Below the pieces are notes generated by a model. That model had not been told where the DNA came from. It made no database searches and worked only from the letters and a program-made list of their open reading frames with translations. Shown here piece by piece: positions 1-64,000 of a stretch of DNA of 64,000 nucleotides. Position numbers and translations under genes: made by a program. The stretch is from positions 11,437,501-11,501,500 of the forward strand of contig NC_092580.1 of the NCBI RefSeq assembly GCF_037975245.1, given 5' to 3'. Each line of letters starts with the position of its first letter. Within the stretch, counting starts at the first letter, position 1. The stretch is from Apostichopus japonicus. Lineage: Eukaryota; Echinodermata; Holothuroidea; Aspidochirotida; Stichopodidae.

Positions 1-3000
1 CTGCAGTAGTTGGAGCATCAGTGGAAGTTGCTGCAGTCATTTCAATAGTACTACTTACGGGACTTGATGTCTCTAATGTTGTCAAGACTTTGGTTGTTGT
101 GTCTTCTATTGTTGATTCCAATGTCGTTTCTTCAGTTGTAGGTTCCAGTGATGTACTTACAGTGCTCTCAAATGTAGCTTCTTCTTCTGTAGAACTCTTC
201 TCAGCTGTAGTTGAAGATTGTCGAGTTGTAATGTCTGTCGTTTCTACCCTTGTACTTTCAACTGCAGTAGTTGGAGATACAGTGGAAGTTGCTGCAGTCC
301 TTTCAATAGTACTACTTACGGGACTTGATGTCTCTAATGTTGTCAAGACTTTGGCTGTTGTGTCTTCTTCGGTTGATTCCAATGTTGTTTCTTCAGTTGA
401 AGGTACCAGTGATGTACTAACAGTACTTTCAATTGTAGTTTCTTCCTCTGTAGTACTCACCTCCTCTGATGGTGAGGGACTGAGAGTTGTAATAACTGAA
501 GTTTCTACCCTACTACTTTCTTCTTCAGTAGTTGGAGTTACAGTGGAAGTTGCTGCGGAGCTTTCAATAGTACTAATTACAGGTGTTGTTGTTTCTAATG
601 TTGTCAAGACTTTGGCTGTTGTCTCTTCTTCTGTTGATCCCAGTGTCGTTTCTTCAGTAGTGGGTAACATTGATGTACCGAAAGTACTCTCAAATGTAGT
701 TTCTTCTTCTGTAGAACTCTTCTCAGCTGTAGTTGAAGGTTGTGGAGTTATAATGTCTGAAGTTTCTACCCTTGTACTTTCAACTGCAGTAGTTGGAGAT
801 ACAGTGGAAGTTGCTGCAGAGCCTTCAATAGTACTACTTACAGGTGTTGCTGTTTCTAATGTTGTCAAGACTTTGGCTGTTGTCTCTTCTTCTGTTGATT
901 TCAAAGTTGTTTCTTCAGTAGTGGGTAACATTGATGTACCGAAAGTACTCTCAAATGTAGTTTCTTCTTCTGTAGAACTCTTCTCAGCTGTAGTTGAAGG
1001 TTGTTGAGTTATAATGTCTGAAGTTTCTACCCTTGTACTTTCAACTGCAGTAGTTGGAGATACAGTGGAAGTTGCTGCAGAGCCTTCAATAGTACTACTT
1101 ACAGGTGTTGCTGTTTCTAATGTTGTCAAGAATTTGGCTGTTGTCTCTGCTTCTGTTGATTCCAATGTTGTTTCTTCAGTTGTAGGTACCAGTGATGTAT
1201 TAACAGTACTTTCAATTGTAGTTTCTTCCTCTGTAGTACTCACCTCCTCTGAAGGTGAGGGACTGAGAGTTGTAATAACTGAAGTTTCTACCATAGTACT
1301 TTCTTCTACAGTAGTTGGAGCTACTGTGGATGTGCCTATAGAGCTTTCAATAGTATTACCTACAGGAGTTGTTATAGTTTCAACTGCAGTAGTTGAAGAT
1401 ACAGTGGAAGTTGCTGTGGAGCCTTCAATAGTACTACTTACAGGTGTTGCTGTTTCTAATGTTGTGAAGACTTTGGCTGTTGTCTCCTCTTCTGCCAAAG
1501 TTGTTTCTTCAGTAGTTGGTAACATTGATGTACCAAAGGTACTCTCAAATGTAGTTTCTTCTTCTGTAGAACTCTTCTCAGCTGTAGTTGAAGGTTGTCG
1601 AGTTATAATATCTGAAGTTTCTATGCTTGTACTTTCAACTGCAGTAGTTGGAGATACAGTGGAAGTTGCTGCGGAGCTTTCAATAGTACTACTTACAGGT
1701 GTTGTTGTTTCTAATGTTGTCAAGACTTTGGCTGTTGTGTCTTCTTCTGTTGCTTCCAATGTTGTTTCTTCAGTTGTAGGTACCAGTGATGTACTTAATG
1801 TGCTCTCAAATGTAGCTTCTTCTTCTGTAGAACTCTTCTCAGCTGTTGTTGAAGGTTGTCGAGTTGTAATGTCTGAAGTTTCTACCCTAGTACTTTCAAC
1901 TGCAGTTGTTGGAGATACAGTGGAAGTTGTTGCGGAGCTTTCATAAGTACTACTTAGAGGTGTTGTTGTTTCTAATGTTGTCAAGACTTTGGCTGTTGTC
2001 TCTTCTTCTGTTGATTCCAAAGTTGTTTCTTCAGTTGTGGGTAACATTGATGCATGTGAAGTACTCTCAAATGTAGTATCTTCCTCAGTAGTACTCACCC
2101 CCTCTGACGGCGAGGGACTGAGAGTTGTACGCTCTGAAGTTTCTACCCTAGTACTTTCTTCTTCACTAGTTGGAGATACAGTGGAAGTTGCTGCAGAGCT
2201 TTCAATCGTACTACTAAAAGATGTTTTTGTTTCTAAGGTTGTCAAGAATTTGGCTGTTGTCTCTTCTTCTGTTGTTTCCAAAGTTGTTTCTTCAGTAGTG
2301 GGTAACATTGATGTACGAGAAGAACTCTCAAATGTAGTTTCTTCTTCCGTAGAACTCATCTCAGCTGTAGTTGAAGGTTTTCGAGTGGTAACCACTGAAG
2401 TTTCTACCCTAGTACTTTCTTCTTCAGTAGTTGGAGCTACTGTGGATGTGCCTATAGAGCTTTCAATAGTACTACCTACATGAGTTGTTGTCTCTAATGT
2501 TGTCATTACTTTAGCTGTTGTCTCTTCTTCTGTTGATTCCAAAGTTGTTTCTGCAGTTGTGGGTACCAGTGATGTACGTGAAGTACTCTCAAATGTAGTT
2601 TCTTCTTCTGTAGAACTCTTCTCAGCTGTAGTTGAAGGTTGTCGAGTTGTAATGTCTGAAGTTTCTACCCTAGTACTTTCAACTGCAGTAGTTGGAGATA
2701 CAGTGGAAGTTGCTGAAGAGCTTTCAATAGTACTAATTTCAGGTGTTGTTGTCTCTAATGTTGTCAAGCCTTTGGCTGTTGTCTCTTGTTCTGTTGATTC
2801 CAATGTTGATTCTTCAGTTATAGGTACCAGTGATGTACTTACAGTACTCTCAAATGTAGTATCTTCCTCTGTAGTACTCACCTCCTCTGACGGTGAGGGA
2901 CTGAGAGTTGTACGCTCTGAAGTTTCTACCCTAGTACTTTCTTCTTCACTAGTTGGAGATACAGTGGATGTTGGTGCAGAGCTTTCAATCGTACTACTAA

Positions 3001-3050
3001 AAGATGTTGTTGTCTCTAAGGTTGTCAAGACTTTGGCTGTTGTCTCTTCT
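1..3050 (-). repeat. Diverged units at the C-terminal side of the array
   Basis: Units here differ from one another more than elsewhere. Many private substitutions are seen, for example at 230-245, 1130-1150, 1370-1400, 1490-1500 and 1940-1960. No long block is repeated near-perfectly. Two units at about 31-70 and 292-350 carry the gcagtc plus acgggacttgatg signature. That signature otherwise marks the flank of the 72-residue domain, but here the domain is absent. Array edges are often older and less homogenised than centres, so the array may end a short way beyond coordinate 1. This is inference. Confidence 0.6.
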
Positions 3051-6000: not shown

Positions 6001-9000
6001 CCTCTGTAGTACTCACCTCCTCTGAAGGTGAGGGACTGAGAGTTGTACGCTCTGAAGTTTCTACCCTAGTACTTTCTTCTTCAGTAGTTGGAGCTACTGT
6101 GGATGTGCCTATAGAGCTTTCAATAGTACTAACAACAGGAGTTGTTGTCTCTAATGTTGTCAATACTTCAGCTGTTGTCTCTTCTTCTGTTGATTCCAAT
6201 GTTGTTTCTTCAGTTGTGGGTACCAGTGATGTTCTTACAGTACTCTCAAATGTAGTTTCTTCCTCTGTAGTACTCATCTCAGCTGTAGTTGAAGGTTGTC
6301 GAGTGGTACGCTCTGAAGTTTCTACCCTAGTACTTTCTTCTTCAGTAGTTGGAGATACAGTGGAAGTTGCTGCGGAGCTTTCAATAGTACTACTTACAGG
6401 TGTTGTTGTTTCTAATGTTGTAAAGACTTTGGCTGTTGTGTCTTCTTCTGTTGATTCCAATGTTGTGTCTTCAGTAGTGGGTAACATTGATGTACGAGAA
6501 GAACTCTCAAATGTAGTTTCTTCTTCCGTAGAACTCACCTCAGCTGTAGTTGAAGGTTGTCGAGTGGTAATCACTGAAGTTTTTACTCTAGTACTTTCTT
6601 CTTCAGTAGTTGGAGCTACTGTGGATGTGCCTATCGAGCTTTCAATAGTACTACCTACAGGAGTTGTTGTCTTTAATGTTGTCAATACTTCAGCTGTTGT
6701 CTCTTCTTCTGTTGATCCCAGTGTTGTATCTTCAGTTGTGGGTAACATTGATGTTCTTACAGTACTCTCAAATGTAGTTTCTTCTTCTGTAGAACTCTTC
6801 TCAGCTGTAGTTGAAGGTTGTCGAGTGGTACGCTCTGAAGTTTCTACCCTAGTACTTTCTTCTTCAGTAGTTGGAGATACAGTGGAAGTTGCTGCGGAGC
6901 TTTCAATAGTACTACTTACAGGAGTTGTTGTCTCTAATGTTGTCAATACTTTGGCTGTTGTCTCTTCTTCTGTTGATGCCAAAGTTGTTTCTGCAGTTGT
7001 GGGTATCATTGATCTACTGAAATTACTCTTAAATGTAGTTTCTTGCTCTGTAATACTCACCTCCTCTGAAGGTGAGGGACTGAGAGTTGTACGCTCTGAA
7101 GTTTCTACCCTAGTACTTTGTTCTTCAGTAGTTGGAGCTACTGTGGAAGTGCCTATAGAGCTTTCAATAGTACTACCTACAGGAGTTGTTGTCTCTAATG
7201 TTGTCAATACTTCAGCTGTTGTCTCTTCTTCTGTTGATCCCAGTGTTGTTTCTTCAGTAGTTGGTAACATTGATGTACCGAAAGTACTCTCAAATGTAGT
7301 TTCTTCTTCTGTAGAACTCTTCTCAGCTGTAGTTGAAGGTTGTCGAGTTGTAATGTCTGAAGTTTCTACCCTTGTACTTTCAACTGCAGTAGTTGGAGAT
7401 ACTGTGGATGTGCCTATAGAGCTTTCAATAGTACTACTTACAGGTGTTGTTGTAAGTTCTTCTGTAGTTTGGCGTGTTCCCTTTTCTGTTGTTTGAATCA
7501 AAATGGTTGAAAATCCCTGACTTGGTGTTTGGACAGTTACTAACTTCTCACCTTTTTCCTTAGTAATAGTTAGGACATCAGGAGTTTCTTCACTCGTTGG
7601 AAAAATACTACTCAATTCATCTTTAGTTATTGTATTGATAGATGTAGCCAGCATAGATATTTTTTCGGTTGCTTCTTCTTCTTCAGTAGTTGAGGCTACT
7701 ATAGGTGTTGCTGCAGAGCTTTCAAAAGAACTTCTGATGGGAGTTGTTAGCTCTAATGTTGTATAGACTTGGATTGTTGTGTCTTCTTCTGTTGATTCCA
7801 ATGTTGATTCTTCAGTTGTAGGTAACACTGATGTAATTTCAGTACTCCTAAAAGTACTTTCTTCTTCTGTAGAACTCATATCAGCTGTAGTTGAAATTTC
7901 TGTAGTTGTAATTACTGAAGTTTCTACCCTAGTACTTTTTTCTTCTTCAGAAGTTGGAGCTACTGTGGATGTGCCTATAGAGCTTTCAATAGTACTACCT
8001 ACATGAGTTGTATCTAATGTTGTCAAGCCTTCAGCTGTTGTCTCTTCTTCTGTTGATTCCAGAGTTGTTACTTCAGTTGTGGGTAACATTGATGTACCGA
8101 AAGTACTCTCAAATGTAGTTTCTTCTTCTGTAGCACTCATCTCAGCTTTAGTTGAAGGTTGTCGAGCGGTAATCACTGAAGTTTCTACCCTAGTACTTTC
8201 TTCTTCAGTAGTTGGAGCTACTGTGGATGTGCCTATAGAGCTTTCAATAGTACTACTTACAGGAGTTGTTGTCTCTAATGTTGTCAAGACTTTGGCTGTT
8301 GTCTCTTCTTCTGTTGATTCCAAAGTTGTTTCTTCAGTTGTGGGTAACATTGATGCATGTGAAGTACTCTCAAATGTAGTTTCTTCCTCTGTAGTACTCA
8401 CCTCCTCTGACGGTGAGGGACTGAGAGTTGTACGCTCTGAAGTTTCTACCCTAGTACTTTCTTCTTCACTAGTTGGAGATACAGTGGAAGTTGCTGCAGA
8501 GCTTTCAATCGTACTACTAAAAGATGTTGTTGTTTCTAAGGTTGTCAAGACTTCAGCTGTTGTCTCTTCTTCTGTTGATCCCAGTGTTGTATCTTCAGTT
8601 GTGGGTAACATTGATGTTCTTACAGTACTCTCAAATGTAGTTTCTTCTTCTGTAGAACTCTTCTCAGCTGTAGTTGAAGGTTGTCGAGTGGTACGCTCTG
8701 AAGTTTCTACCCCAGTACTTTCTTCTTCAGTAGTTGGAGCTACTGTGGATGTGCCTATAGAGCTTTCAATAGTACTACTTACAGGAGTTGTTGTCTCTAA
8801 TGTTGTCAATACTTTGGCTGTTGTCTCTTCTTCTGTTGATGCCAAAGTTGTTTCTGCAGTTGTGGGTATCATTGATCTACTGAAAGTACTCTTAAATGTA
8901 GTTTCTTGCTCTGTAATACTCACCTCCTCTGAAGGTGAGGGACTGAGAGTTGTACGCTCTGAAGTTTCTACCCTAGTACTTTCAACTGCAGTAGTTGGAG

Positions 9001-24000: not shown

Positions 24001-27000
24001 CTGAAGTTTCTACCTTAGTACTTTCTTCTTCAGTAGTTGGAGATACAGTGGAAGTTGCTGCGGAGATTTCTATAGTACTAATTACAGGTGTTGTTGTGAC
24101 TAATGTTGTCAAGACTTTTGCTGTTGTCTCTTCTTCTGTTGATTCCAATGTTGTTTCTTCAGTTGTGGGTACCAGTGATGTTCTTACAGTACTCTCAAAT
24201 GTAGTTTCTTCCTCTGTAGTACTCATCTCAGCTGTAGTTGAAGGTTGTCGAGTGGTAATCACTGAAGTTTCTACCCTAGTACTTTCTTCTTCAGTAGTTG
24301 GAGCTACTGTGGATGTGCCTATCGAGCTTTCAATAGTACTACCTACATGAGTTGTTGTCTCTAATGTTGTCAATACTTCAGCTGTTGTCTCTTCTTCTGT
24401 TGATCCCAGTGTTGTTTCTTCAGTAGTGGGTAACATTGATGTACCGAAAGTACTCTCAAATGTAGTTTCTTCTTCTGTAGAACTCTTCTCAGCTGTAGTT
24501 GAAGGTTGTCGAGTTGTAATGTCTGAAGTTTCTACCCTAGTACTTTCAACTGCAGTAGTTGGAGATACAGTGGAGGTTGCTGCAGAGCTTTCAATAGTAC
24601 TAATTACAGGTGTTGTTGTCTCTAATGTTGTCAAGACTTTGGCTGTTGTCTCTTCTTCTGTTGATTCCAATGTTGTTTCTTCAGTTGTGGGTACCATTGA
24701 TGTTCTTACAGTACTCTCAAATGTAGTTTCTTCCTCTGTAGTACTCATCTCAGCTGTAGTTGAAGGTTGTCGAGTGGTAATCACTGAAGTTTCTACCCTA
24801 GTACTTTCTTCTTCAGTAGTTGGAGCTACTGTGGATGTGCCTATCGAGCTTTCAATAGTACTACCTACATGAGTTGTTGTCTCTAATGTTGTCAATACTT
24901 CAGCTGTTGTCTCTTCTTCTGTTGATCCCGGTGTTGTTTCTTCAGTAGTGGGTAACATTGATGTACCGAAAGTACTCTCAAATGTAGTTTCTTCTTCTGT
25001 AGAACTCTTCTCAGCTGTAGTTGAAGGTTGTCGAGTTGTAATGTCTGAAGTTTCTACCCTAGTACTTTCAACTGCAGTAGTTGGAGATACAGTGGAAGTT
25101 GCTGCAGAGCTTTCAATAGTGCCAATTACAGGTGTTGTTGTCTCTAATGTTGTCAAGACTTTGGCTGTTGTCTCTTCTTCTGTTGATTCCAATGTTGTTT
25201 CTTCAGTAGTGGGTAACATTGATGTACCGAAAGTACTCTCAAATGTAGTTTCTTCTTCTGTAGAACTCTTCTCAGCTGTAGTTGAAGGTTGTCGAGTTGT
25301 AATGTCTGAAGTTTCTACCCTAGTACTTTCAACTGCAGTAGTTGGAGATACAGTGGAAGTTGCTGCAGAGCTTTCAATAGTGCTAATTACAGGTGTTGTT
25401 GTCTCTAATGTTGTCAATACTTTGGCTGTTGTCTCTTCTTCTGTTGATGCCAAAGTTGTTTCTGCAGTTGTGGGTATCATTGATGTACTGAAAGTACTCT
25501 TAAATGTAGTTTCTTGCTCTGTAGTACTCACCTCCTCTGAAGGTGAGGGACTGAGAGTTGTACGCTCTGAAGTTTCTACCCTAGTACTTTCTTCTTCAGT
25601 AGTTGGAGCTACTGTGGATGTGCCTATAGAGCTTTCAATAGTACTACCTACATGAGTTGTTGTCTCTAATGTTGTAAAGACTTTGGCTGTTGTGTCTTCT
25701 TCTGTTGATTCCAATGTTGTTTCTTCAGTAGTGGGTAACATTGATGTACCGAAAGTACTCTCAAATGTAGTTTCTTCTTCTGTAGAACTCTTCTCAGCTG
25801 TAGTTGAAGGTTGTCGAGTTGTAATGTCTGAAGTTTCTACCCTAGTACTTTCAACTGCAGTAGTTGGAGATACAGTGGAAGTTGCTGCAGTCTTTTCAAT
25901 AGTACTACTCACGGGACTTAATGTCTCTAATGTTGTCAAGACTTCCGCTGTTGTCTCTTCTTCTGTTGCTTCCAATGTTGTTTCTTCAGTTGTGGGAAGC
26001 AGTGATTTACTTTCAGTTCTCTCAAATGTAAGTTCTTCTGTAGTTTGGCGTGTTCCTGTTTCTGTTGTTTGAATCAAAATGGTTGAAAATCCCTGACTTG
26101 GTGTTTGGACAGTTACTAACTTCTCACCTTTTTCCTTAGTAATAGTTAGGACATCGGGAGTTTCTTCACTCGTTGGAAAAATACTACTCAATTCATCTTT
26201 AGTTATTGTATTGATAGATGTAGCCAGCATAGATATTTTTTCGGTTGCTTCTTCTTCTTCAGTAGTTGAGGCTACTATAGGTGTTCCTGCAGAGCTTTCA
26301 AAAGAACTTCTGATGGGAGTTGTTAGCTCTAATGTTGTATAGACTTGGATTGTTGTGTCTTCTTCTGTTGATTCCAATGTTGATTCTTCAGTTGTAGGTA
26401 ACACTGATGTAATTTCAGTACTCCTAAAAGTACTTTCTTCTTCTGTAGAACTCATATCAGCTGTAGTTGAAATTTCTGTAGTTGTAATTACTGAAGTTTC
26501 TACCCTAGTACTTTTTTCTTCTTCAGAAGTTGGAGCTACTGTGGATGTGCCTATAGAGCTTTCAATAGTACTACCTACATGAGTTGTATCTAATGTTGTC
26601 AAGCCTTCAGCTGTTGTCTCTTCTTCTGTTGATTCCAAAGTTGTTACTTCAGTTGTGGGTAACATTGATGTACCGAAAGTACTCTCAAATGTAGTTTCTT
26701 CTTCTGTAGAACTCTTCTCAGCTGTAGTTGAAGGTTGTCGCGTTGTAATGTCTGAAGTTTCGACCCTAGTACTTTCAACTGCAGTAGTTGGAGTTACTGT
26801 GGATGTGCCTATAGAGCTTTCAATAGTACTACCTACATGAGTTGTTGTCTCTAATGTTGTCAATACTTCAGCTGTTGTCTCTTCTTCTGTTGATTCCAAT
26901 GTTGTTTCTTCAGTTGTGGGTACCAGTGATGTTCTTACAGTACTCTCAAATGTAGTTTCTTCCTCTGTAGTACTCATCTCAGCTGTAGTTGAAGGTTGTC

Positions 27001-36000: not shown

Positions 36001-39000
36001 TAGTTGAAGGTTGTCGAGTGGTAATCACTGAAGTTTCTACCCTAGTACTTTCTTCTTCAGTAGTTGGAGATACAGTGGAAGTTGCTGGGGAGATTTCAAT
36101 AGTACTAATTACAGGTGTTGTTGTCTCTAATGTTGTCAAGACTTTGGCTGTTGTCTCTTCTTCTGTTGATTCCAATGTTGTTTCTTCAGTTGTGGGTACC
36201 AGTGATGTTCTTACAGTACTCTCAAATGTAGTTTCTTCCTCTGTAGTACTCATCTCAGCTCTAGTTGAAGGTTGTCGAGTGGTAATCACTGAAGTTTCTA
36301 CCCTAGTACTTTCTTCTTCAGTAGTTGGAGCTACTGTGGATGTGCCTATAGAGCTTTCAATAGTACTACCTACATGAGTTGTTGTCTCTAATGTTGTCAA
36401 TACTTCAGCTGTTGTCTCTTCTTCTGTTGATTCCAATGTTGTTTCTTCAGTAGTGGGTAACATTGATGTACCTAAAGTACTCTCAAATGTAGTTTCTTCT
36501 TCTGTAGAACTCTTCTCAGCTGTAGTTGAAGGTTGTCGCGTTGTAATGTCTGAAGTTTCGACCCTAGTACTTTCAACTGCAGTAGTTGGAGTTACTGTGG
36601 ATGTGCCTATAGAGCTTTCAATAGTACTACCTACATGAGTTGTTGTCTCTAATGTTGTCAATAATTCAGCTGTTGTCTCTTCTTCTGTTGATTCCAATGT
36701 TGTTTCTTCAGTTGTGGGTACCAGTGATGTTCTTACAGTACTCTCAAATGTAGTTTCTTCCTCTGTAGTACTCATCTCAGCTGTAGTTGAAGGTTGTCGA
36801 GTGGTAATCACTGAAGTTTCTACCCTAGTACTTTCTTCTTCAGTAGTTGGAGCTACTGTGGATGTGCCTATCGAGCTTTCAATAGTACTAACAACAGGAG
36901 TTGTTGTCTCTAATGTTGTCAAGACTTTGGCTGTTGTCTCTTCTTCTGTTGATCCCAGTGTTGTTTCTTCAGTAGTGGGTAACATTGATGTACCGAAAGT
37001 ACTCTCAAATGTAGTTTCTTCTTCTGTAGAACTCTTCTCAGCTGTAGTTGAAGGTTGTCGAGTTGTAATGTCTGAAGTTTCGACCCTAGTACTTTCAACT
37101 GCAGTAGTTGGAGATACAGTGGAAGTTGCTGCAGAGCTTTCAATAGTGCTAATTACAGGTGTTGTTGTCTCTAATGTTGTCAATACTTTGGCTGTTGTCT
37201 CTTCTTCTGTTGATGCCAAAGTTGTTTCTGCAGTTGTGGGTATCATTGATGTACTGAAAGTACTCTTAAATGTAGTTTCTTGCTCTGTAGTACTCACCTC
37301 CTCTGAAGGTGAGGGACTGAGAGTTGTACGCTCTGAAGTTTCTACCCTAGTACTTTCTTCTTCAGTAGTTGGAGCTACTGTGGATGTGCCTATAGAGCTT
37401 TCAATAGTACTACCTACATGAGTTGTTGTCTCTAATGTTGTAAAGACTTTGGCTGTTGTGTCTTCTTCTGTTGATTCCAATGTTGTTTCTTCAGTAGTGG
37501 GTAACATTGATGTACCGAAAGTACTCTCAAATGTAGTTTCTTCTTCTGTAGAACTCTTCTCAGCTGTAGTTGAAGGTTGTCGAGTTGTAATGTCTGAAGT
37601 TTCTACCCTAGTACTTTCAACTGCAGTAGTTGGAGATACAGTGGAAGTTGCTGCAGTCTTTTCAATAGTACTACTCACGGGACTTAATGTCTCTAATGTT
37701 GTCAAGACTTCCGCTGTTGTCTCTTCTTCTGTTGCTTCCAATGTTGTTTCTTCAGTTGTGGGAAGCAGTGATTTACTTTCAGTTCTCTCAAATGTAAGTT
37801 CTTCTGTAGTTTGGCGTGTTCCTGTTTCTGTTGTTTGAATCAAAATGGTTGAAAATCCCTGACTTGGTGTTTGGACAGTTACTAACTTCTCACCTTTTTC
37901 CTTAGTAATAGTTAGGACATCGGGAGTTTCTTCACTCGTTGGAAAAATACTACTCAATTCATCTTTAGTTATTGTATTGATAGATGTAGCCAGCATAGAT
38001 ATTTTTTCGGTTGCTTCTTCTTCTTCAGTAGTTGAGGCTACTATAGGTGTTCCTGCAGAGCTTTCAAAAGAACTTCTGATGGGAGTTGTTAGCTCTAATG
38101 TTGTATAGACTTGGATTGTTGTGTCTTCTTCTGTTGATTCCAATGTTGATTCTTCAGTTGTAGGTAACACTGATGTAATTTCAGTACTCCTAAAAGTACT
38201 TTCTTCTTCTGTAGAACTCATATCAGCTGTAGTTGAAATTTCTGTAGTTGTAATTACTGAAGTTTCTACCCTAGTACTTTTTTCTTCTTCAGAAGTTGGA
38301 GCTACTGTGGATGTGCCTATAGAGCTTTCAATAGTACTACCTACATGAGTTGTATCTAATGTTGTCAAGCCTTCAGCTGTTGTCTCTTCTTCTGTTGATT
38401 CCAAAGTTGTTACTTCAGTTGTGGGTAACATTGATGTACCGAAAGTACTCTCAAATGTAGTTTCTTCTTCTGTAGAACTCATTTCAGCTTTAGTTGAAGG
38501 TTGTCGAGTGGTAATGTCTGAAGTTTCGACCCTAGTTCTTTCAACTGCAGTAGCTGGAGTTACTGTGGATGTGCCTATAGAGCTTTCAATAGTACTACCT
38601 ACATGAGTTGTTGTCTCTAATGTTGTCAATACTTCAGCTGTTGTCTCTTCTTCTGTTGATTCCAATGTTGTTTCTTCAGTTGTGGGTAACATTGATGTAC
38701 CGAAAGTACTCTCAAATGTAGTTTCTTCTTCTGTAGAACTCTTCTCAGCTGTAGTTGAAGGTTGTCGAGTGGTAATCACTGAAGTTTCTACCCTAGTACT
38801 TTCTTCTTCAGTAGTTGGAGATACAGTGGAAGTTGCTGGGGAGATTTCAATAGTACTAATAACAGGTGTTGTTGTCTCTAATGTTGTCAAGACTTTGGCT
38901 GTTGTCTCTTCTTCTGTTGATTCCAATGTTGTTTCTTCAGTTGTGGGTACCAGTGATGTTCTTACAGTACCCTCAAATGTAGTTTCTTCCTCTGTAGTAC

Positions 39001-42000: not shown

Positions 42001-45000
42001 TTGTTGTCTCTAATGTTGTCAAGACTTTGGCTGTTGTCTCTTCTTCTGTTGATTCCAATGTTGTTTCTTCAGTAGTGGGTAACATTGATGTACCGAAAGT
42101 ACTCTCAAATGTAGTTTCTTCTTCTGTAGAACTCTTCTCAGCTGTAGTTGAAGGTTGTCGAGTTGTAATGTCTGAAGTTTCTACCCTAGTACTTTCAACT
42201 GCAGTAGTTGGAGATACAGTGGAAGTTGCTGCAGAGCTTTCAATAGTGCTAATTACAGGTGTTGTAGTCTCTAATGTTGTCAAGACTTTGGCTGTTGTCT
42301 CTTCTTCTGTTGATTCCAATGTTGTTTCTTCAGTAGTGGGTAACATTGATGTACCTAAAGTTCTCTCAAATGTAGTTTCTTCTTCTGTAGAACTCATCTC
42401 AGCTGTAGTTGAAGGTTGTCGCGTTGTAATGTCTGAAGTTTCGACCCTAGTACTTTCAACTGCAGTAGTTGGAGTTACTGTGGATGTGCCTATAGAGCTT
42501 TCAATAGTACTACCTACATGAGTTGTTGTCTCTAATGTTGTCAATAATTCAGCTGTTGTCTCTTCTTCTGTTGATTCCAATGTTGTTTCTTCAGTTGTGG
42601 GTACCAGTGATGTTCTTACAGTACCCTCAAATGTAGTTTCTTCTTCTGTAGAACTCTTCTCAGCTGTAGTTGAAGGTTGTCGAGTGGTAATCACTGAAGT
42701 TTCTACCCTAGTACTTTCTTCTTCAGTAGTTGGAGATACAGTGGAAGTTGCTGCGGAGATTTCAATAGTACTAATTACAGGTGTTGTTGTCTCTAATGTT
42801 GTCAAGACTTTGGCTGTTGTCTCTTCTTCTGTTGATGCCAATGTTGTTTCTTCAGTTGTGGGTACCAGTGATGTTCTTACAGTACTCTCAAATGTAGTTT
42901 CTTCCTCTGTAGTACTCATCTCAGCTGTAGTTGAAGGTTGTCGAGTGGTAATCACTGAAGTTTCTACCCTAGTACTTTCTTCTTCAGTAGTTGGAGCTAC
43001 TGTGGATGTGCCTATAGAGCTTTCAATAGTACTACCTACATGAGTTGTTGTCTCTAATGTTGTAAAGACTTTGGCTGTTGTGTCTTCTTCTGTTGATTCC
43101 AATGTTGTTTCTTCAGTAGTGGGTAACATTGATGTACCGAAAGTACTCTCAAATGTAGTTTCTTCTTCTGTAGAACTCTTCTCAGCTGTAGTTGAAGGTT
43201 GTCGAGTTGTAATGTCTGAAGTTTCTACCCTAGTACTTTCAACTGCAGTAGTTGGAGATACAGTGGAAGTTGCTGCAGTCTTTTCAATAGTACTACTCAC
43301 GGGACTTAATGTCTCTAATGTTGTCAAGACTTCCGCTGTTGTCTCTTCTTCTGTTGCTTCCAATGTTGTTTCTTCAGTTGTGGGAAGCAGTGATTTACTT
43401 TCAGTTCTCTCAAATGTAAGTTCTTCTGTAGTTTGGCGTGTTCCTGTTTCTGTTGTTTGAATCAAAATGGTTGAAAATCCCTGACTTGGTGTTTGGACAG
43501 TTACTAACTTCTCACCTTTTTCCTTAGTAATAGTTAGGACATCGGGAGTTTCTTCACTCGTTGGAAAAATACTACTCAATTCATCTTTAGTTATTGTATT
43601 GATAGATGTAGCCAGCATAGATATTTTTTCGGTTGCTTCTTCTTCTTCAGTAGTTGAGGCTACTATAGGTGTTCCTGCAGAGCTTTCAAAAGAACTTCTG
43701 ATGGGAGTTGTTAGCTCTAATGTTGTATAGACTTGGATTGTTGTGTCTTCTTCTGTTGATTCCAATGTTGATTCTTCAGTTGTAGGTAACACTGATGTAA
43801 TTTCAGTACTCCTAAAAGTACTTTCTTCTTCTGTAGAACTCATATCAGCTGTAGTTGAAATTTCTGTAGTTGTAATTACTGAAGTTTCTACCCTAGTACT
43901 TTTTTCTTCTTCAGAAGTTGGAGCTACTGTGGATGTGCCTATAGAGCTTTCAATAGTACTACCTACATGAGTTGTATCTAATGTTGTCAAGCCTTCAGCT
44001 GTTGTCTCTTCTTCTGTTGATTCCAAAGTTGTTACTTCAGTTGTGGGTAACATTGATGTACCGAAAGTACTCTCAAATGTAGTTTCTTCTTCTGTAGAAC
44101 TCATTTCAGCTTTAGTTGAAGGTTGTCGAGTGGTAATGTCTGAAGTTTCGACCCTAGTTCTTTCAACTGCAGTAGCTGGAGTTACTGTGGATGTGCCTAT
44201 AGAGCTTTCAATAGTACTACCTACATGAGTTGTTGTCTCTAATGTTGTCAATACTTCAGCTGTTGTCTCTTCTTCTGTTGATTCCAATGTTGTTTCTTCA
44301 GTTGTGGGTACCAGTGATGTTCTTACAGTACTCTCAAATGTAGTTTCTTCCTCTGTAGTACTCATCTCAGCTGTAGTTGAAGGTTGTCGAGTGGTAATCA
44401 CTGAAGTTTCTACCCTAGTACTTTCTTCTTCAGTAGTTGGAGATACAGTGGAAGTTGCTGGGGAGATTTCAATAGTACTAATTACCGGTGTTGTTGTCTC
44501 TAATGTTGTCAAGACTTTGGCTGTTGTCTCTTCTTCTGTTGATTCCAATGTTGTTTCTTCAGTTGTGGGTACCAGTGATGTTCTTACAGTACTCTCAAAT
44601 GTAGTTTCTTCCTCTGTAGTACTCATCTCAGCTGTAGTTGAAGGTTGTCGAGTTGTAATGTCTGAAGTTTCTACCCTAGTACTTTCTTCTTCAGTAGTTG
44701 GAGATACAGTGGAAGTTGCTGCGGAGATTTCAATAGTACTAATTACAGGTGTTGTTGTCTCTAATGTTGTCAAGACTTTGGCTGTTGTCTCTTCTTCTGT
44801 TGATTCCAATGTTGTTTCTTCAGTTGTGGGTACCAGTGATGTTCTTACAGTACTCTCAAATGTAGTTTCTTCCTCTGTAGTACTCATCTCAGCTGTAGTT
44901 GAAGGTTGTCGAGTGGTAATCACTGAAGTTTCTACCCTAGTACTTTCTTCTTCAGTAGTTGGAGCTACTGTGGATGTGCCTATAGAGCTTTCAATAGTAC

Positions 45001-54000: not shown

Positions 54001-57000
54001 TTTCTTCTCCTGTAGAACTCTTCTCAGCTGTAGTTGAAGGTTGTCGAGTTGTAATGTCTGAAGTTTCTACCCTAGTACTTTCAACTGCAGTAGTTGGAGA
54101 TACAGTGGAAGTTGCTGCAGAGCTTTCAATAGTGCTAATTACAGGTGTTGTTGTCTCTAATGTTGTCAATACTTTGGCTGTTGTCTCTTCTTCTGTTGAT
54201 GCCAAAGTTGTTTCTGCAGTTGTGGGTATCATTGATGTACTGAAAGTACTCTTAAATGTAGTTTCTTGCTCTGTAGTACTCACCTCCTCTGAAGGTGAGG
54301 GACTGAGAGTTGTACGCTCTGAAGTTTCTACCCTAGAACTTTCTTCTTCAGTAGTTGGAGCTACTGTGGATGTGCCTATAGAGCTTTCAATAGTACTACC
54401 TACATGAGTTGTTGTCTCTAATGTTGTAAAGACTTTGGCTGTTGTGTCTTCTTCTGTTGATTCCAATGTTGTTTCTTCAGTAGTGGGTAACATTGATGTA
54501 CCGAAAGTACTCTCAAATGTAGTTTCTTCTTCTGTAGAACTCTTCTCAGCTGTAGTTGAAGGTTGTCGAGTTGTAATGTCTGAAGTTTCGACCCTAGTAC
54601 TTTCAACTGCAGTAGTTGGAGATACAGTGGAAGTTGCTGCAGTCTTTTCAATAGTACTACTCACGGGACTTAATGTCTCTAATGTTGTCAAGACTTCCGC
54701 TGTTGTCTCTTCTTCTGTTGCTTCCAATGTTGTTTCTTCAGTTGTGGGAAGCAGTGATTTACTTTCAGTTCTCTCAAATGTAAGTTCTTCTGTAGTTTGG
54801 CGTGTTCCTGTTTCTGTTGTTTGAATCAAAATGGTTGAAAATCCCTGACTTGGTGTTTGGACAGTTACTAACTTCTCACCTTTTTCCTTAGTAATAGTTA
54901 GGACATCGGGAGTTTCTTCACTCGTTGGAAAAATACTACTCAATTCATCTTTAGTTATTGTATTGATAGATGTAGCCAGCATAGATATTTTTTCGGTTGC
55001 TTCTTCTTCTTCAGTAGTTGAGGCTACTATAGGTGTTCCTGCAGAGCTTTCAAAAGAACTTCTGATGGGAGTTGTTAGCTCTAATGTTGTATAGACTTGG
55101 ATTGTTGTGTCTTCTTCTGTTGATTCCAATGTTGTTTCTTCAGTTGTGGGTACCAGTGATGTTCTTACAGTACTCTCAAATGTAGTTTCTTCCTCTGTAG
55201 TACTCATCTCAGCTGTAGTTGAAGGTTGTCGAGTGGTAATCACTGAAGTTTCGACCCTAGTACTTTCTTCTTCAGTAGTTGGAGATACAGTGGAAGTTGC
55301 TGCGGAGATTTCAATAGTACTACCTACATGAGTTGTTGTCTCTAATGTTGTCAATACTTCAGCTGTTGTCTCTTCTTCTGTTGATCCCAGTGTTGTTTCT
55401 TCAGTAGTGGGTAACATTGATGTACCGAAAGTACTCTCAAATGTCGTTTCTTCTTCTGTAGAACTCTTCTCAGCTGTAGTTGAAGGTTGTCGAGTTCTAA
55501 TGTCTGAAGTTTCGACCCAAGTACTTTCAACTGCAGTAGTTGGAGTTACTGTGGATGTGCCTATAGAGCTTTCAATAGTACTACCTACATGAGTTGTTGT
55601 CTCTAATGTTGTCAATAATTCAGCTGTTGTCTCTTCTTCTGTTGATTCCAATGTTGTTTCTTCAGTTGTGGGTACCAGTGATGTTCTTACAGTACTCTCA
55701 AATGTAGTTTCTTCCTCTGTAGTACTTATCTCAGCTGTAGTTGAAGGTTGTCGAGTGGTAATCACTGAAGTTTCTACCCTAGTACTTTCTTCTTCAGTAG
55801 TTGGAGATACACTGGAAGTTGCTGCGGAGCTTTCAATAGTACTACTTACAGGTGTTGTTGTTTCTAATGTTGTAAAGACTTTGGCTGTTGTGTCTTCTTC
55901 TGTTGATTCCAATGTTGTGTCTTCAGTAGTGGGTAACATTGATGTACCGAAAGTACTTTCAAATGTAGTTTTTTCTTCTGTAGAACTCATCTCAGCTGTA
56001 GTTGAAGGTTGTCGAGTAGTAATCACTGAAGTTTCTACCCTAGTACTTTCTCCTTCAGTAGTTGGAGATAGAGTGGATGTGCCTATAGAGCTTTCAATAG
56101 TACTACTTACAGGTGTTGTTGTTTCTAATGTTGTCAAGACTTTGGCTGTTGTCTCTTCTTCTGTTGATTCCAAAGTTGTTTCTTCAGTTGTGGGTAAAAT
56201 TAATACACGTGAAGTACTCTCAAATGTAGTTTCTTCTTTCGTAGAAATCTTCTCAGCTGTAGTTGAAGGTTGTTGAGTGGTAATCACTGAAGTACTTTCT
56301 TCTTCAGTAGTTGGAGCTACTGTGGATGTGCCTATAGAGCTTTCAATAGTACTACCTACATTAGTTGTTGTCTCTAATGTTGTCAATACTTCAGCTGTTG
56401 TCTCTTCTTCTGTTGATCCCAGTGTTGTTTCTTCAGTAGTGGGTAACATTGATGTACCAAAAGTACTCTCAAATGTAGTTTCTTCTTCTGTAGAACTCTT
56501 CTCAGCTGTAGTTGAAGGTTGTCGAGTTGTAATGTCTGAAGTTTCTACCCTAGTACTTTCAACTGCAGTAGTTGGAGATACAGTGGAAGTTGCTGCAGAG
56601 CTTTCAATAGTGCTAATTACAGGTGTTGTTGTCTCTAATGTTGTCAAGACTTTGGCTGTTGTCTCTTCTTCTGTTGATTCCAATGTTGTTTCTTCAGTTG
56701 TGGGTACCAGTGATGTTCTTACAGTACTCTCAAATGTAGTTTCTTCCTCTGTAGTACTCATCTCAGCTGTAGTTGAAGGTTGTCGAGTGGTAATCACTGA
56801 AGTTTCTACCCTAGTACTTTCTTCTTCAGTAGTTGGAGATACAGTGGAAGTTGCTGTGGAGCTTTCAATAGTACTACCTACAGGAGTTGTTGTCTCTAAT
56901 GTTGTCAATACTTCAGCTGTTGTCTCTTCTTCTGTTGATCCCAGTGTTGTTTCTTCAGTAGTGGGTAACATTGATGTACCGAAAGTACTCTCAAATGTAG

Positions 57001-63000: not shown

Positions 63001-64000
63001 TTGTAATGTCTGAAGTTTCTACCCTAGTACTTTCAACTGCAGTAGTTGGAGATACAGTGGAAGTTGCTGCAGTCTTTTCAATAGTACTACTCACGGGACT
63101 TAATGTCTCTAATGTTGTCAAGACTTCCGCTGTTGTCTCTTCTTCTGTTGCTTCCAATGTTGTTTCTTCAGTTGTGGGAAGCAGTGATTTACTTTCAGTT
63201 CTCTCAAATGTAAGTTCTTCTGTAGTTTGGCGTGTTCCTGTTTCTGTTGTTTGAATCAAAATGGTTGAAAATCCCTGACTTGGTGTTTGGACAGTTACTA
63301 ACTTCTCACCTTTTCCCTTAGTAATAGTTAGGACATCGGGAGTTTCTTCACTCGTTGGAAAAATACTACTCAATTCATCTTTAGTTATTGTATTGATAGA
63401 TGTAGCCAGCATAGATATTTTTTCCGTTGCTTCTTCTTCTTCAGTAGTTGAGGCTACTATAGGTGTTGCTGTAGAGCTTTCAAAAGAACTTCTGATGGGA
63501 GTTGTTAGCTCTAATGTTGTATAGACTTGGATTGTTGTGTCTTCTTCTGTTGATTCCAATGTTGATTCTTCAGTTGTAGGTAACACTGATGTAATTTCAG
63601 TACTCCTAAAAGTACTTTCTTCTTCTGTAGAACTCATCTCAGCTGTAGTTGAAATTTCTGTAGTTGTAATTACTGAAGTTTCTACCCTAGTACTTTCTTC
63701 TTCTTCAGTAGTTGGAGCTACTGTGGATGTGCCTATAGAGCTTTCAATAGTACTACCTACATGAGTTGTATCTAATGTTGTCAAGCCTTCAGCTGTTGTC
63801 TCTTCTTCTGTTGATTCCAAAGTTGTTACTTCAGTTGTGGGTAACATTGATGTACCGAAAGTACTCTCAAATGTAGTTTCTTCTTCTGTAGAACTCTTCG
63901 CAGCTGTAGTTGAAGGTTGTCGAGTTGTAATGTCTGAAGTTTCTACCCTAGTACTTTCAACTGCAGTAGTTGGAGATACAGTGGAAGTTGCTGCGGAGCT
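2..64000 (-). CDS. Giant Thr/Ser/Glu-rich mucin-like repeat protein, partial at both ends
   Basis: Reverse-complementing plus triplets that begin at positions congruent to 2 modulo 3 gives an open frame. I met no stop in the ordinary units, the divergent units or the deleted units I translated. The protein is about 245 repeats of 87 residues. An A-type unit contains GSTIESSIGTSTVAP, then VETSVITTRQPSTTAE, then EEETTFESTVRTSLVPT, then TAKVLTTLETTTPV. Composition is dominated by Thr, Ser and Glu, with Val and Pro. I saw no Cys and a single Trp, so disulphide-bonded domains are absent. Dense Thr/Ser with Pro is typical of mucin-type O-glycosylated stalks, so I infer an extended secreted or surface protein, but no signal peptide or membrane segment lies in the window. 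Frame-preserving indels and wobble-position variation support real coding. In-frame ATG codons occur in many units, so the start cannot be chosen. The alternative is a giant bacterial surface protein. The family is not recognised. Confidence 0.85.
1362..1690 (-). repeat. Internally deleted units
   Basis: At about 1371-1381 the unit start (acaggagttgtt) runs almost directly into the tcaactgcagtag block. In a normal unit the same landmarks are about 201 bp apart (7179 to 7380); here they are about 18 bp apart, a loss of about 183 bp or 61 codons. Further on, at about 1491-1500, a 6-bp deletion gives tctgccaaag instead of the longer form with gttgatg. Both losses keep the minus-strand frame. Confidence 0.7.
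3050..7100 (-). repeat. Four-unit higher-order repeat, period 1,044 bp
   Basis: The marker cgagaagaactctc (an unusual unit with a ...SSRTS... block in the protein) occurs at 3099, about 4146 (as tgagaag), 5451 and 6495. The first interval is 1,047 bp, which is 4 x 261 plus a 3-bp insertion near 4090 (an extra ctt in the cttctt run). The second is 1,305 bp (5 x 261) and the third 1,044 bp (4 x 261). The order of A, B and C unit types between markers is the same, so a block of four units was amplified as a whole. Confidence 0.75.
7454..7669 (-). repeat. Divergent 72-residue domain, copy 1
   Basis: These 216 bp do not align with the ordinary unit. They encode, N to C, TEKISMLATSINTITKDELS, then a stretch with IFPTSEETPDVLTITKE, then EKLVTVQTPSQGFSTILIQ, ending near RQTTEEL. 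It is poorer in Thr and richer in Lys, Gln, Ile, Leu and Phe than the rest of the array, so it could be a small folded, beta-rich element between disordered stalks. This copy differs from the others in reading K rather than T near the end (tcccttttc). Its coordinate-left flank is an ordinary unit (caggtgttgttg) rather than the acgggactta flank seen in the other copies. No known family is recognised. Confidence 0.8.
7762..8006 (-). repeat. Partner unit N-terminal to the 72-residue domain (copy 1)
   Basis: This unit always lies next to the domain on its N-terminal side in copies 1 to 5 and 7. It carries the plus-strand words gtatagacttggattg and gaaatttctgtagttg, which encode TTIQVYTTLELTT and VITTEISTTADM in the protein. 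These differ from the ordinary AKVLTTLETTT and VITTRQPSTTAE. Equivalent units begin at 26338, 29872, 38104, 43726 and 63520. Copy 6 lacks most of it. Confidence 0.75.
8962..15250 (-). repeat. Six-unit higher-order repeat, period 1,554 bp (version 1)
   Basis: Positions 9001, 10555, 12109 and 14185 start equivalent blocks. The spacings are 1,554, 1,554 and 2,076 bp, the last being 1,554 plus two extra units. The block is 6 x 261 minus 12 bp. The missing 12 bp are gattccaatgtt, lost between two tgttg direct repeats at about 9360, 10914, 12468 and 14544; another copy lies at 17652. A second marker, cttctactgtagaac, recurs once per block. The copies are almost identical over their length, pointing to recent amplification. 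Confidence 0.85.
14046..21480 (-). repeat. 3,108-bp duplication and six-unit repeat, period 1,554 bp (version 2)
   Basis: The rare marker gatgcatgtgaag lies at 15873, 18981 and 20535, spacings 3,108 and 1,554 bp. About 14046-16800 is repeated from 17154 at an offset of 3,108 bp. Within the second copy a 1,554-bp block is repeated again. Here the 12-bp deficit comes from a different deletion: tttctaccctag is lost between agt direct repeats at about 16225, 19333 and 20887, so the protein lacks TRVE there. Confidence 0.85.
21480..25400 (-). repeat. Mixed A/B units with a five-unit rhythm
   Basis: The acatgag variant (His codon on the coding strand) and matching unit orders recur at about 1,305 bp (5 x 261): 21555 matches 22860, and 21816 matches 23121 and 24426. 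Unit order is otherwise shuffled. Private substitutions such as gttttaatg (about 22165 and 23470) are shared by only two units, which suggests local copying of single blocks. Confidence 0.55.
25440..26640 (-). repeat. Domain cassette, copy 2
   Basis: From low to high coordinate the cassette has four parts: a C-type unit (SPSPSEE block, about 25530), a B-type unit, a flank with gcagtc and cacgggactta (25887-26029), and the 72-residue domain with its partner unit. The same order recurs at offsets of +3,534 and +11,766 bp, and at 54.2-55.1 kb with the right end altered. The C-type unit therefore travels with the domain in these copies. Confidence 0.7.
26030..26245 (-). repeat. Divergent 72-residue domain, copy 2
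   Basis: This is near-identical to copies 3, 4, 5 and 6 and reads T instead of K in the TEKGTR segment of copy 1. The frame is preserved on both sides. It lies 18,576 bp from copy 1, which equals 71 x 261 + 141 - 8 x 12. That is the value expected from one cassette (141 bp longer than a whole number of units) and the eight 12-bp deletions I located between them. Confidence 0.8.
29564..29779 (-). repeat. Divergent 72-residue domain, copy 3
   Basis: This copy lies 3,534 bp from copy 2 (13 x 261 + 141). About 1.7 kb around both copies is duplicated as one piece: 28.5-30.2 kb matches 24.9-26.6 kb. A private change just beyond the domain (gaggctgctatagg, about 29803-29816) replaces a Val codon by Ala. 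Confidence 0.8.
30450..33245 (-). repeat. Five-unit higher-order repeat, period 1,305 bp
   Basis: The private variant cagtaccctc (ordinary form cagtactctc) lies at about 31255 and 32560, 1,305 bp apart (5 x 261). The surrounding order of units is the same: several consecutive A-type left halves joined to B-type right ends with ggggagatttc. A-type central blocks are unusually frequent here. Confidence 0.65.
32890..36380 (-). repeat. Six-unit duplication, offset 1,566 bp
   Basis: About 33241-34270 matches 34807-35836 at an offset of 1,566 bp (6 x 261, with no deleted unit). The rare cttcttttgttgatccc variant is shared at about 33285 and 34851. One unit differs between copies, cggagatttc against ggggagatttc, and another reads cttctgctgttg only in the first copy (about 33808). 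Confidence 0.75.
37796..38011 (-). repeat. Divergent 72-residue domain, copy 4
   Basis: This copy lies 8,232 bp from copy 3 (31 x 261 + 141). The cassette around it, about 37.35-38.68 kb, is duplicated at 42.96-44.30 kb with an offset of 5,622 bp. The duplicate shares the private variant gtagctggag in the unit N-terminal to the domain (about 38551 and 44173). Confidence 0.8.
38660..43270 (-). repeat. Large duplicated block, first copy (offset 6,666 bp)
   Basis: About 4.6 kb here matches 45.33-49.94 kb at an offset of 6,666 bp (25 x 261 + 141). The private word aataacagg at 38859 and 45525, and the gcttctgttgatccc variant at about 39432 and 46098, confirm the pairing. The duplicated unit therefore contained one domain cassette, and the present array shows it as copies 4 and 5. 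Confidence 0.75.
43418..43633 (-). repeat. Divergent 72-residue domain, copy 5
   Basis: This copy lies 5,622 bp from copy 4 (21 x 261 + 141). It has the same sequence as copies 2 to 4 as far as I compared. It is flanked by the cacgggactta segment on the C-terminal side and the partner unit on the N-terminal side. Unlike copies 2, 3, 4 and 6, no C-type (SPSPSEE) unit lies next to it; an A-type unit is found there (about 42890-42960). Confidence 0.8.
45330..49936 (-). repeat. Large duplicated block, second copy (offset 6,666 bp)
   Basis: This pairs with 38.66-43.27 kb. Differences are few: for example ggggagatttc against cggagatttc near the coordinate-right end, gacgtttctacc against gaagtttctacc (about 49625), and cgaagatttc at about 48115. 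At its right end both copies share gtaaagactttgg (43063 and 49729), then diverge, the first copy running into the domain cassette and the second into ordinary B-type units. Confidence 0.7.
47870..54133 (-). repeat. 3,132-bp tandem duplication (two adjacent copies)
   Basis: About 47870-51001 and 51002-54133 are adjacent near-identical copies of 12 units (12 x 261). Shared private variants include cgaagatttc (about 48115 and 51247), gttgaagatacag (48875 and 52007), gtccagac (49467 and 52599), and cttctcctgtag, which marks the end of the duplication (50874 and 54006). The few differences include gtactgaaag against gtaccgaaag at 50847 and 53979. This is among the youngest events in the window. 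Confidence 0.85.
54782..54997 (-). repeat. Divergent 72-residue domain, copy 6
   Basis: The domain and its C-terminal-side flank match copies 2 to 5. It lies 11,364 bp from copy 5 (43 x 261 + 141). The partner unit is chimeric: its first part (gtatagacttggattg, about 55088) is normal for a cassette, but from about 55130 it continues as an ordinary A-type unit (gggtaccagtg). Later it takes a B-type end (gcggagatttc). Confidence 0.8.
55517..55519 (-). other. Lone Trp codon
   Basis: The plus triplet is cca instead of the usual cct, which turns an Arg codon (AGG) of the STRVETS segment into Trp (TGG). It is the only Trp codon I noticed in the predicted protein. A one-off substitution or a sequence error would both explain it. 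Confidence 0.55.
55860..61980 (-). repeat. Higher-order repeats carrying a KI..T..R unit, spacings 1,554 and 2,595 bp
   Basis: The marker acacgtgaagtac lies at 56205, 57759, 60354 and 61908. Intervals are 1,554, 2,595 and 1,554 bp, that is 6 x 261 - 12, 10 x 261 - 12 - 3 and 6 x 261 - 12. Each marked unit is followed by the tttctaccctag deletion (about 56292, 57845, 60441 and 61995) and by a Gln codon replacing Arg (gttgttgagtgg). A 3-bp loss at about 58230 (aatgtttcttc) explains the extra -3. The first marker copy is more diverged (aattaatacacg, ctttcgtag). Confidence 0.8.
61371..62750 (-). repeat. Three-unit repeat, period 771 bp
   Basis: The acacgtgaagtac marker at 61908 recurs at 62679, an interval of 771 bp, which is 3 x 261 - 12. 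The units between are in the same order in both copies. Both copies end in the 12-bp-deleted unit (about 61995 and 62765). Confidence 0.75.
63212..63427 (-). repeat. Divergent 72-residue domain, copy 7
   Basis: This copy lies 8,430 bp from copy 6, equal to 32 x 261 + 141 - 5 x 12 - 3, again as predicted from the small deletions I could locate. It has two private differences: ccttttcccttag replaces one Glu codon by Gly (about 63316), and ttttccgttgc is a silent Thr change. Just beyond the domain it reads gttgctgtagag instead of gttcctgcagag. It is therefore the most diverged copy after copy 1. Confidence 0.8.

Follow-up and report, generated by a model that had tools for sequence, protein, structure and literature searches.

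A 64-kb window of sea cucumber DNA within a predicted 101.6-kb exon for a putative Kazal-capped, mucin-like giant protein

Introduction

Human titin, a folded protein of approximately 34,000-36,000 amino acids, is encoded by hundreds of exons, and PKZILLA-1 has about 45,000 amino acids. The mucin MUC12 ends in SEA/EGF domains plus a membrane anchor. PKZILLA is treated in a paper that was available as partial text (PMC12300183).

Large in-frame VNTR exons are a common feature of mucins according to the accessible part of a 2026 preprint, which gives the longest human MUC12 allele as 23,080 amino acids and ranks its exon as the largest of all human exons (PMC13345508). MUC2, MUC5AC and MUC5B are secreted, and their ends, which are rich in cysteine, enclose a large region rich in Ser and Thr (PMC9080433, partial text), and the mark of a canonical gel-forming or transmembrane mucin is a VWD or SEA domain (PMC1552070, partial text).

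The locus described here, from the sea cucumber Apostichopus japonicus, resembles these mucins in its repeat exon, but differs from them in the domains at its ends. The window, i.e., the whole stretch of 64,000 nucleotides that was analysed, probably represents the middle of a 101.6-kb exon in an eight-exon gene of about 116 kb, predicted to encode a secreted, Kazal-capped, mucin-like filament of 34,241 amino acids. No earlier description of the gene was found among the literature matches listed, outside of which lie most subscription papers and bioRxiv-only preprints. Nor is the gene described in the accessible parts of publications that deal with very large proteins, the matrix of echinoderms and single-cell data from sea cucumbers (PMC11573180, PMC10381214, PMC11925454).

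Results

An open frame across the window and its flanks

A genome of 671.6 Mb in 35 contigs (numbered C1-C35) was searched. The window is C20:11437501-11501500, such that a window coordinate equals the C20 coordinate minus 11437500. On the minus strand, the frame whose plus-strand triplets begin at 2 mod 3 spans positions 2-64000 and gave 0 stops in 21,333 codons on translation, and the other five frames of the window contained 97 to 2,036 stops each. With contiguous flanks added (31 kb to the right and 20 kb to the left, without any N), the frame ran for 33,893 codons from stop to stop, C20:11526436 to 11424755. A base-shuffled exon had 2,121 in-frame stops on average and never fewer than 2,066 (20 shuffles). 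Together with the stop-variant test and its frame controls (see below), this rules out an open frame by chance.

The antisense plus-strand frame contains 176 stops, and its longest ORF has 1,466 codons. Five shuffles of synonymous codons produced longest antisense ORFs of 1,476-1,670 codons with 112-134 stops. Since they so reproduce the long antisense ORFs, these are a by-product of composition, and antisense coding was rejected. An Rfam scan of the window returned nothing at gathering thresholds.

A sequence-only reading of the window had held that a minus-strand frame of at least 21,333 codons carries no stop and that both of its ends lie outside, and translation agrees on both points: the frame is open at the two window edges because the whole window sits inside one predicted exon, which runs beyond them on either side. 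It had also warned that a gene finder requiring a start and a stop inside the window would miss the frame and report only antisense fragments. A repeat without a start or stop within 64 kb indeed means that window-based gene finders can miss the gene or call such fragments.

A predicted gene with Kazal exons on both sides

Kazal-pattern ORFs were located upstream and downstream of the giant exon on the same strand, and the following exons are predicted:

C20:11538574-11538484, minus strand: exon 1, signal-peptide-like leader
C20:11531154-11530993, minus strand: exon 2, Kazal
C20:11529992-11529834, minus strand: exon 3, Kazal
C20:11528115-11527951, minus strand: exon 4, Kazal
C20:11527550-11527356, minus strand: exon 5, Kazal
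C20:11526378-11424763, minus strand: exon 6, the giant exon, 101,616 bp, 33,872 codons
Window 1..64000, minus strand: in-window part of giant exon 6, from the open frame and the gene model
C20:11423065-11422892, minus strand: exon 7, Kazal
C20:11422516-11422353, minus strand: exon 8, Kazal, terminating in TAA

The resulting protein would consist, in order, of the leader, four Kazal domains, a Thr/Ser/Glu-rich, cysteine-free repeat region of 33,872 codons, two further Kazal domains and the stop. The predicted coding sequence of 102,726 bp specifies 34,241 amino acids (3.64 MDa before glycosylation), in line with the earlier claim of a polypeptide that rivals the largest known, and the giant exon accounts for 99% of it. 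The upstream end of the giant frame has 182 codons without a methionine. Its acceptor, tttctgtttcag/ACATCC (slash, junction; fuller context tctgttgctttctgtttcag/ACATCC), is strong, and its donor, CTACAG/gtgagtag, lies ahead of the first downstream stop. All seven introns of the model are GT-AG and of phase 1. However, the splice sites of the small exons were picked with phase in view, and only the giant exon has its phase set by its own frame at both ends, such that the phase agreement is supportive, but no independent test.

Exon 1 begins with MRIDLILLQLVICILHAVQS and reaches a hydrophobicity of 3.12 over 9 residues (by eye and by a hydrophobicity scan). No other leader candidate among the 20 listed in C20:11531175-11562500 has a GTRAG-type phase-1 donor. 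An intron in the 5′ UTR may precede it (ccatgcag/GTGAAATG). No AATAAA or ATTAAA was present within 2 kb past the TAA stop, which counts against the model, unless the 3′ UTR is longer. The next downstream gene on the same strand looks BRPF/peregrin-like by eye.

Extension into the flanks, as the sequence-only reading had proposed, thus uncovered a putative hydrophobic leader exon with a start on the upstream side and a TAA on the downstream side. The exon by itself, in turn, cannot be taken for the whole gene, since start, leader and stop belong to other exons.

Domain content of the ends

Pfam was run on the joined N-terminal 257 and C-terminal 112 amino acids. Kazal_2 (cut-off 22.8 bits) matched the former in four stretches (E 1.3e-31, 108.9 bits) and the latter in two (E 2.1e-18, 66.6 bits). 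Only Kazal families were found in these terminal parts, with no VWD, SEA, cystine-knot, laminin-G or EGF domain, and VWD and SEA were also absent from three 2,000-aa samples of the giant exon, the remainder of which lay outside the Pfam scan. Because VWD and SEA are lacking in the parts scanned, we call the protein mucin-like rather than a canonical mucin. A match of the repeat to DUF4450 (two of the three samples, E 2.5e-10 and 1e-9, with no single stretch passing) was dismissed as an artefact of composition.

All 36 cysteines of the predicted protein fall into residues 13-247 and 34,135-34,239, one of them in the leader. Counted by reading the sequence, Kazal domains 1, 2, 4 and 6 have six each. 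The third (exon 4) has only four, the second and fourth cysteine having been lost together; in Kazal domains, these two form a disulfide pair. The fifth (exon 7) has seven, i.e., one extra. The reactive site of a Kazal domain is the second residue after the second cysteine. By this rule, the first domain would present Arg and the last Leu, pointing to trypsin-like and chymotrypsin/elastase-like targets. The Kazal domains may serve to inhibit proteases or to protect the ends of the chain, inhibition being inferred. The C-terminal Kazal pair had agrin as its top PDB match (8s9p, E 7e-42 summed over seven domains), with ovomucoid, follistatin and rhodniin among the further top matches.

Architecture of the repeat array

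Autocorrelation of the giant exon peaks at a period of 87 amino acids, corresponding to 261-bp units, and a profile search found 369 units of about this length. The 368 spacings between them comprise 308 of 87 codons, 23 of 83, 20 of 88, seven of 134, four of 111, three of 86 and three single larger ones, and every change in unit length keeps the reading frame. Short peptides such as QPSTTAEK, VETSDITTR and VETSVITTR are predicted to recur 149, 132 and 100 times, respectively. At either end of the exon, a non-repetitive stretch (459 codons at the head, 429 at the tail) is likewise free of stops. By coarse clustering, 272 of the 369 units belong to one dominant subfamily, and the last 19 are of a distinct type. 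The rarer variants E, F and G are represented by seven units each and form a complete E-F-G cassette six times. An insert of 47 codons occurs eight times, in the six full cassettes, in one E-F pair without G and before one lone G. Within the window, the array presents itself as follows:

29..63988, minus strand: 241 of the 369 units lying wholly in the window (profile search)
63326..63727, minus strand: 134-codon variant unit, class F, 47-codon insert, full E-F-G cassette
54896..55297, minus strand: 134-codon variant unit, class A then G, 47-codon insert
43532..43933, minus strand: 134-codon variant unit, class F, 47-codon insert, full E-F-G cassette
37910..38311, minus strand: 134-codon variant unit, class F, 47-codon insert, full E-F-G cassette
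29678..30079, minus strand: 134-codon variant unit, class F, 47-codon insert, full E-F-G cassette
26144..26545, minus strand: 134-codon variant unit, class F, 47-codon insert, full E-F-G cassette
7412..7969, minus strand: 186-codon variant unit, class F, 47-codon insert, E-F without G
1334..1666, minus strand: variant unit of 111 codons, class I; another three are located at the low end of the window or past it

The 47-codon insert contains ATEKISMLATSINTITKDELSSIFPTSEETPDVLT and is less mucin-like than the remaining array; it is irregularly spaced, and seven of its eight copies are in the window.

The 308 units with a length of exactly 87 codons include 222 distinct ones, with a mean pairwise nucleotide identity of 87%. 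As the distance between units grows, identity drops merely from 0.88 to 0.86, and this near-flat relationship fits an array that undergoes exchange and homogenisation.

Selection on the reading frame

For each column of the unit, codons that differ by one base from the commoner codon were counted, each distinct variant once; variants with more than one changed base (119) were omitted, and the expectation was derived from the observed spectrum of base changes. Of 498 distinct variants, 128 were synonymous and 370 replaced the residue, and not a single one created a stop, as compared to 24.1 expected (P ~2e-11). As a control, the two shifted frames of the same strand were counted in 86 columns. 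Stops there came close to expectation, with 42 versus 35.9 for +1 and 31 versus 27.2 for +2, as opposed to 0 versus 24.0 in frame. The two halves of the array, taken separately, also had no stops versus 12.1 and 16.6 expected, the last 19 units being excluded from the second half. Restricting the count to singletons, which is a weaker test, left 0 stops among 126 variants (5.3 expected, P ~0.005).

The residues themselves were a different matter. No purifying selection on them was found: the 370 replacements compare with 354 expected, so that the residues of the unit look nearly unconstrained. The combination of zero stops with the expected number of replacements indicates that selection keeps the frame, not the residues. 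Cysteine was never gained among the 498 variants, although 7.3 such gains were expected. Ser/Thr was lost 106 times (122.7 expected) and gained 36 times (24.7), Asn was gained 8 times (18.3), and Pro was gained 13 times (21.0) and lost 10 times (16.7), none of these comparisons carrying a significance test; acidic residues were lost 59 times versus 59.5 expected. As inferred from these variants, the stop deficit means that nonsense changes have been removed. It is no proof of a protein in the present-day animal.

Composition and predicted structure

The giant exon encodes 31% Thr, 17.5% Glu, 14.8% Ser, 4.4% Pro and no Cys. Ser and Thr together make up 46%, a value that also holds for the frame within the window, and number 15,551 residues. 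Its net charge is -4,678 before glycans, or about -12 per unit. As far as the available text of the source goes, the guideline for mucin-type (PTS) sequences is Ser+Thr above 40% with about 5% proline (PMC9080433). The mark for Ser+Thr was passed, with at least 40% in 95.7% of 33,830 windows of 100 amino acids, and so was that for tandem repeats in one large, albeit predicted, exon. Proline, in contrast, has a median of 4% per window and reaches at least 5% in 42% of the 100-aa and 14% of the 200-aa windows; both marks are met together in 39% and 13% of them, respectively. AlphaFold, given one unit along with 20 others, returned a mean pLDDT of 60, a pTM of 0.13 and no secondary structure, which fits a disordered chain.

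Integrity of the assembly and genomic copies

The longest exact repeat in the giant exon measures 2,988 bp, its copy being 3,132 bp away. Exact repeats of at least 500 bp start at 22% of positions, of at least 1 kb at 7% and of at least 2 kb at 2%, and none reaches 3 kb. The accessible part of the paper on the likely source assembly gives HiFi reads of 14.7 kb on average, 64-fold coverage and a QV of 48.86 (Sun et al. 2023, PMC10344927). Such a QV predicts about 1.3 base errors over the length of the giant exon, which is consistent with none of them breaking the frame. The concern of the sequence-only reading that the array might be a misassembly is largely answered by the length of the longest exact repeat.

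The best 150 of 391 candidate matches to the unit in the genome all lie within the giant frame; a distant second copy of the array is not excluded, because only these 150 were scored. The unique tail of the exon has a single genomic match, namely itself (one of 11 candidates).

Other loci came up in these searches. C10:6672020-6930749 holds dozens of Kazal matches, with runs at a spacing of ~960 bp, and six identical 75-aa Kazal ORFs recur with a period of 961 bp in C10:6917001-6923000. Duplication of one Kazal exon may have given rise to a second huge gene here, or an array may have expanded recently. Clusters of Kazal exons at C4:1549704-1566248 (~430-bp spacing) and C3:16165975-16185139 were among the best matches to exon 7, at ~40-54% identity. 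Furthermore, C29:14745-31219 contains COX1-like pieces with TGA codons, while a complete copy is present on the mitochondrial contig C35; C29 may be a second mitochondrial-type contig, or the pieces may be a nuclear copy. C35 has a length of 16,099 bp. Its COX1 frame is free of stops under several mitochondrial codes, of which the echinoderm code (table 9) was adopted because it yields the conserved residues of COX1. On 7 kb of C35, ARAGORN detected 8 tRNAs; with CytB, ND1 and ND2, identified by eye and without annotation of the rRNAs, they follow the gene order of echinoids and holothuroids.

Discussion

Our analysis supports the reading of a giant coding exon from sequence alone; there is no RNA or peptide evidence behind its transcription. 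If the prediction is correct, the repeat region would form a disordered, heavily O-glycosylated, polyanionic filament, the glycosylation being inferred without glycan data, and 15,551 Ser/Thr residues together with the net charge of -4,678 would make it a strongly hydrated polyanion. Mucin-like chains extend by 0.25-0.36 nm per residue, from which arithmetic yields a contour length of about 8-12 micrometres for the extended molecule. The filament may hydrate and thicken mucus or a surface coat, a localisation that is itself inferred, and the Kazal caps, which would hold the sole disulfides of the molecule, may inhibit serine proteases at its ends. Unequal exchange and conversion among the 261-bp units presumably lengthened the exon, with selection preserving an open, cysteine-free frame, but barely constraining the residues of the unit.

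Could the array instead be a non-coding satellite that is open in one frame by accident? Its period is divisible by three, its high content of Thr, Ser and Glu codons reduces the chance of stops, and there is a long antisense frame as well, all of which would suit a satellite. However, stop-making variants are missing in one frame only, the head and tail are non-repetitive and yet open, Kazal exons in phase flank the exon on both sides, the matches scored belong to one locus, and no cysteines were gained where 7.3 were expected. We consider a satellite to be refuted by the stop test with its frame controls, and give it next to no credence. That the array length was misassembled, with the true exon much shorter or longer, is a somewhat more tangible worry: tandem arrays are the usual site of collapse and expansion, and the 2,988-bp exact duplicate lies only 3,132 bp from its copy. 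Against this stand the 14.7-kb HiFi reads of the likely source assembly at 64-fold coverage, which nowhere meet an exact repeat as long as 3 kb, and a region without any N, and we regard such an error as highly improbable.

Harder to dismiss is a genuine coding gene in which whole units are removed from most transcripts in an exitron-like manner, such that the full chain of ~34,000 amino acids is rarely or never made. There are no transcript data to speak against it, and tandem in-frame units could in principle supply internal splice sites. But the 101.6 kb are free of stops and frameshifts throughout, which suggests that the entire exon has been translated often enough to purge nonsense changes, and partial splicing therefore seems unlikely to us. 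The least settled point is where the protein would act. Rather than in surface mucus, the same molecule might serve as a core protein of connective tissue, in an egg coat or in the coelomic clot. The body wall of sea cucumbers contains an extensive matrix, and the best PDB match of the C-terminal Kazal pair, agrin, is a proteoglycan of the extracellular matrix. Yet no laminin-G, EGF or other matrix-binding domain turned up in the N- and C-terminal parts scanned, and the protein has the composition of a mucin-like domain. We thus see these sites as a possibility to be kept in mind rather than the favoured one: by inference, mucus or a surface coat is the leading site for the Kazal-capped filament, with matrix or an egg coat not excluded.

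If the gene operates as predicted, it would put transcription, the definition of an exon across 100 kb, translation and secretion to the test at extreme length. It would also show that animals need not polymerise short chains to obtain very long mucin-like filaments, but can extend a single chain. We tentatively raise the possibility, which remains doubtful for now, that this is the longest single coding exon recognised in animals, and that it specifies a Kazal-capped megamucin, a filament of ~10 micrometres that does without VWD-driven polymerisation and in which the extra cysteine in Kazal domain 5 would be available for end-to-end linking.

How does the locus compare with known systems? MUC12, MUC4, MUC16 and MUC3A share with it one huge in-frame, Ser/Thr-rich repeat exon flanked by small exons for folded domains, and an extracellular product. 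The unit here differs from those of this group in having 87 amino acids and in being acidic and proline-poor. As opposed to MUC12, the predicted exon has 101,616 bp and 33,872 codons, the ends are Kazal domains, and TAA follows directly after the last of them. The sequence-only reading had placed the frame, if it is one exon, far beyond the largest well-known animal exons, such as those of titin and MUC16. That it is one exon is supported by the splice sites and by the phase shared with the Kazal exons, but the yardstick was dated. Because the longest MUC12 allele encodes 23,080 amino acids according to the accessible part of the preprint, the margin over the MUC12 exon is only about 1.5-fold and not several-fold. 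Transcribed as one exon, the locus would nevertheless exceed the largest human exon reported there (PMC13345508).

The secreted mucins MUC2, MUC5AC and MUC5B likewise place cysteine-rich ends around a large Ser/Thr-rich region, whereas the terminal parts here have no VWD or cystine-knot domain and enclose a middle of 33,872 residues without cysteine. Agrin and follistatin-type multi-Kazal proteins have runs of Kazal domains in common with the predicted protein, but here no laminin-G or EGF modules were found in the parts scanned and the giant repeat dominates. In size, finally, titin and PKZILLA-1 are in a comparable class. Unlike in titin, 99% of the predicted protein comes from one exon and is expected to be disordered, so that a chain of the titin class would be obtained from almost a single exon.
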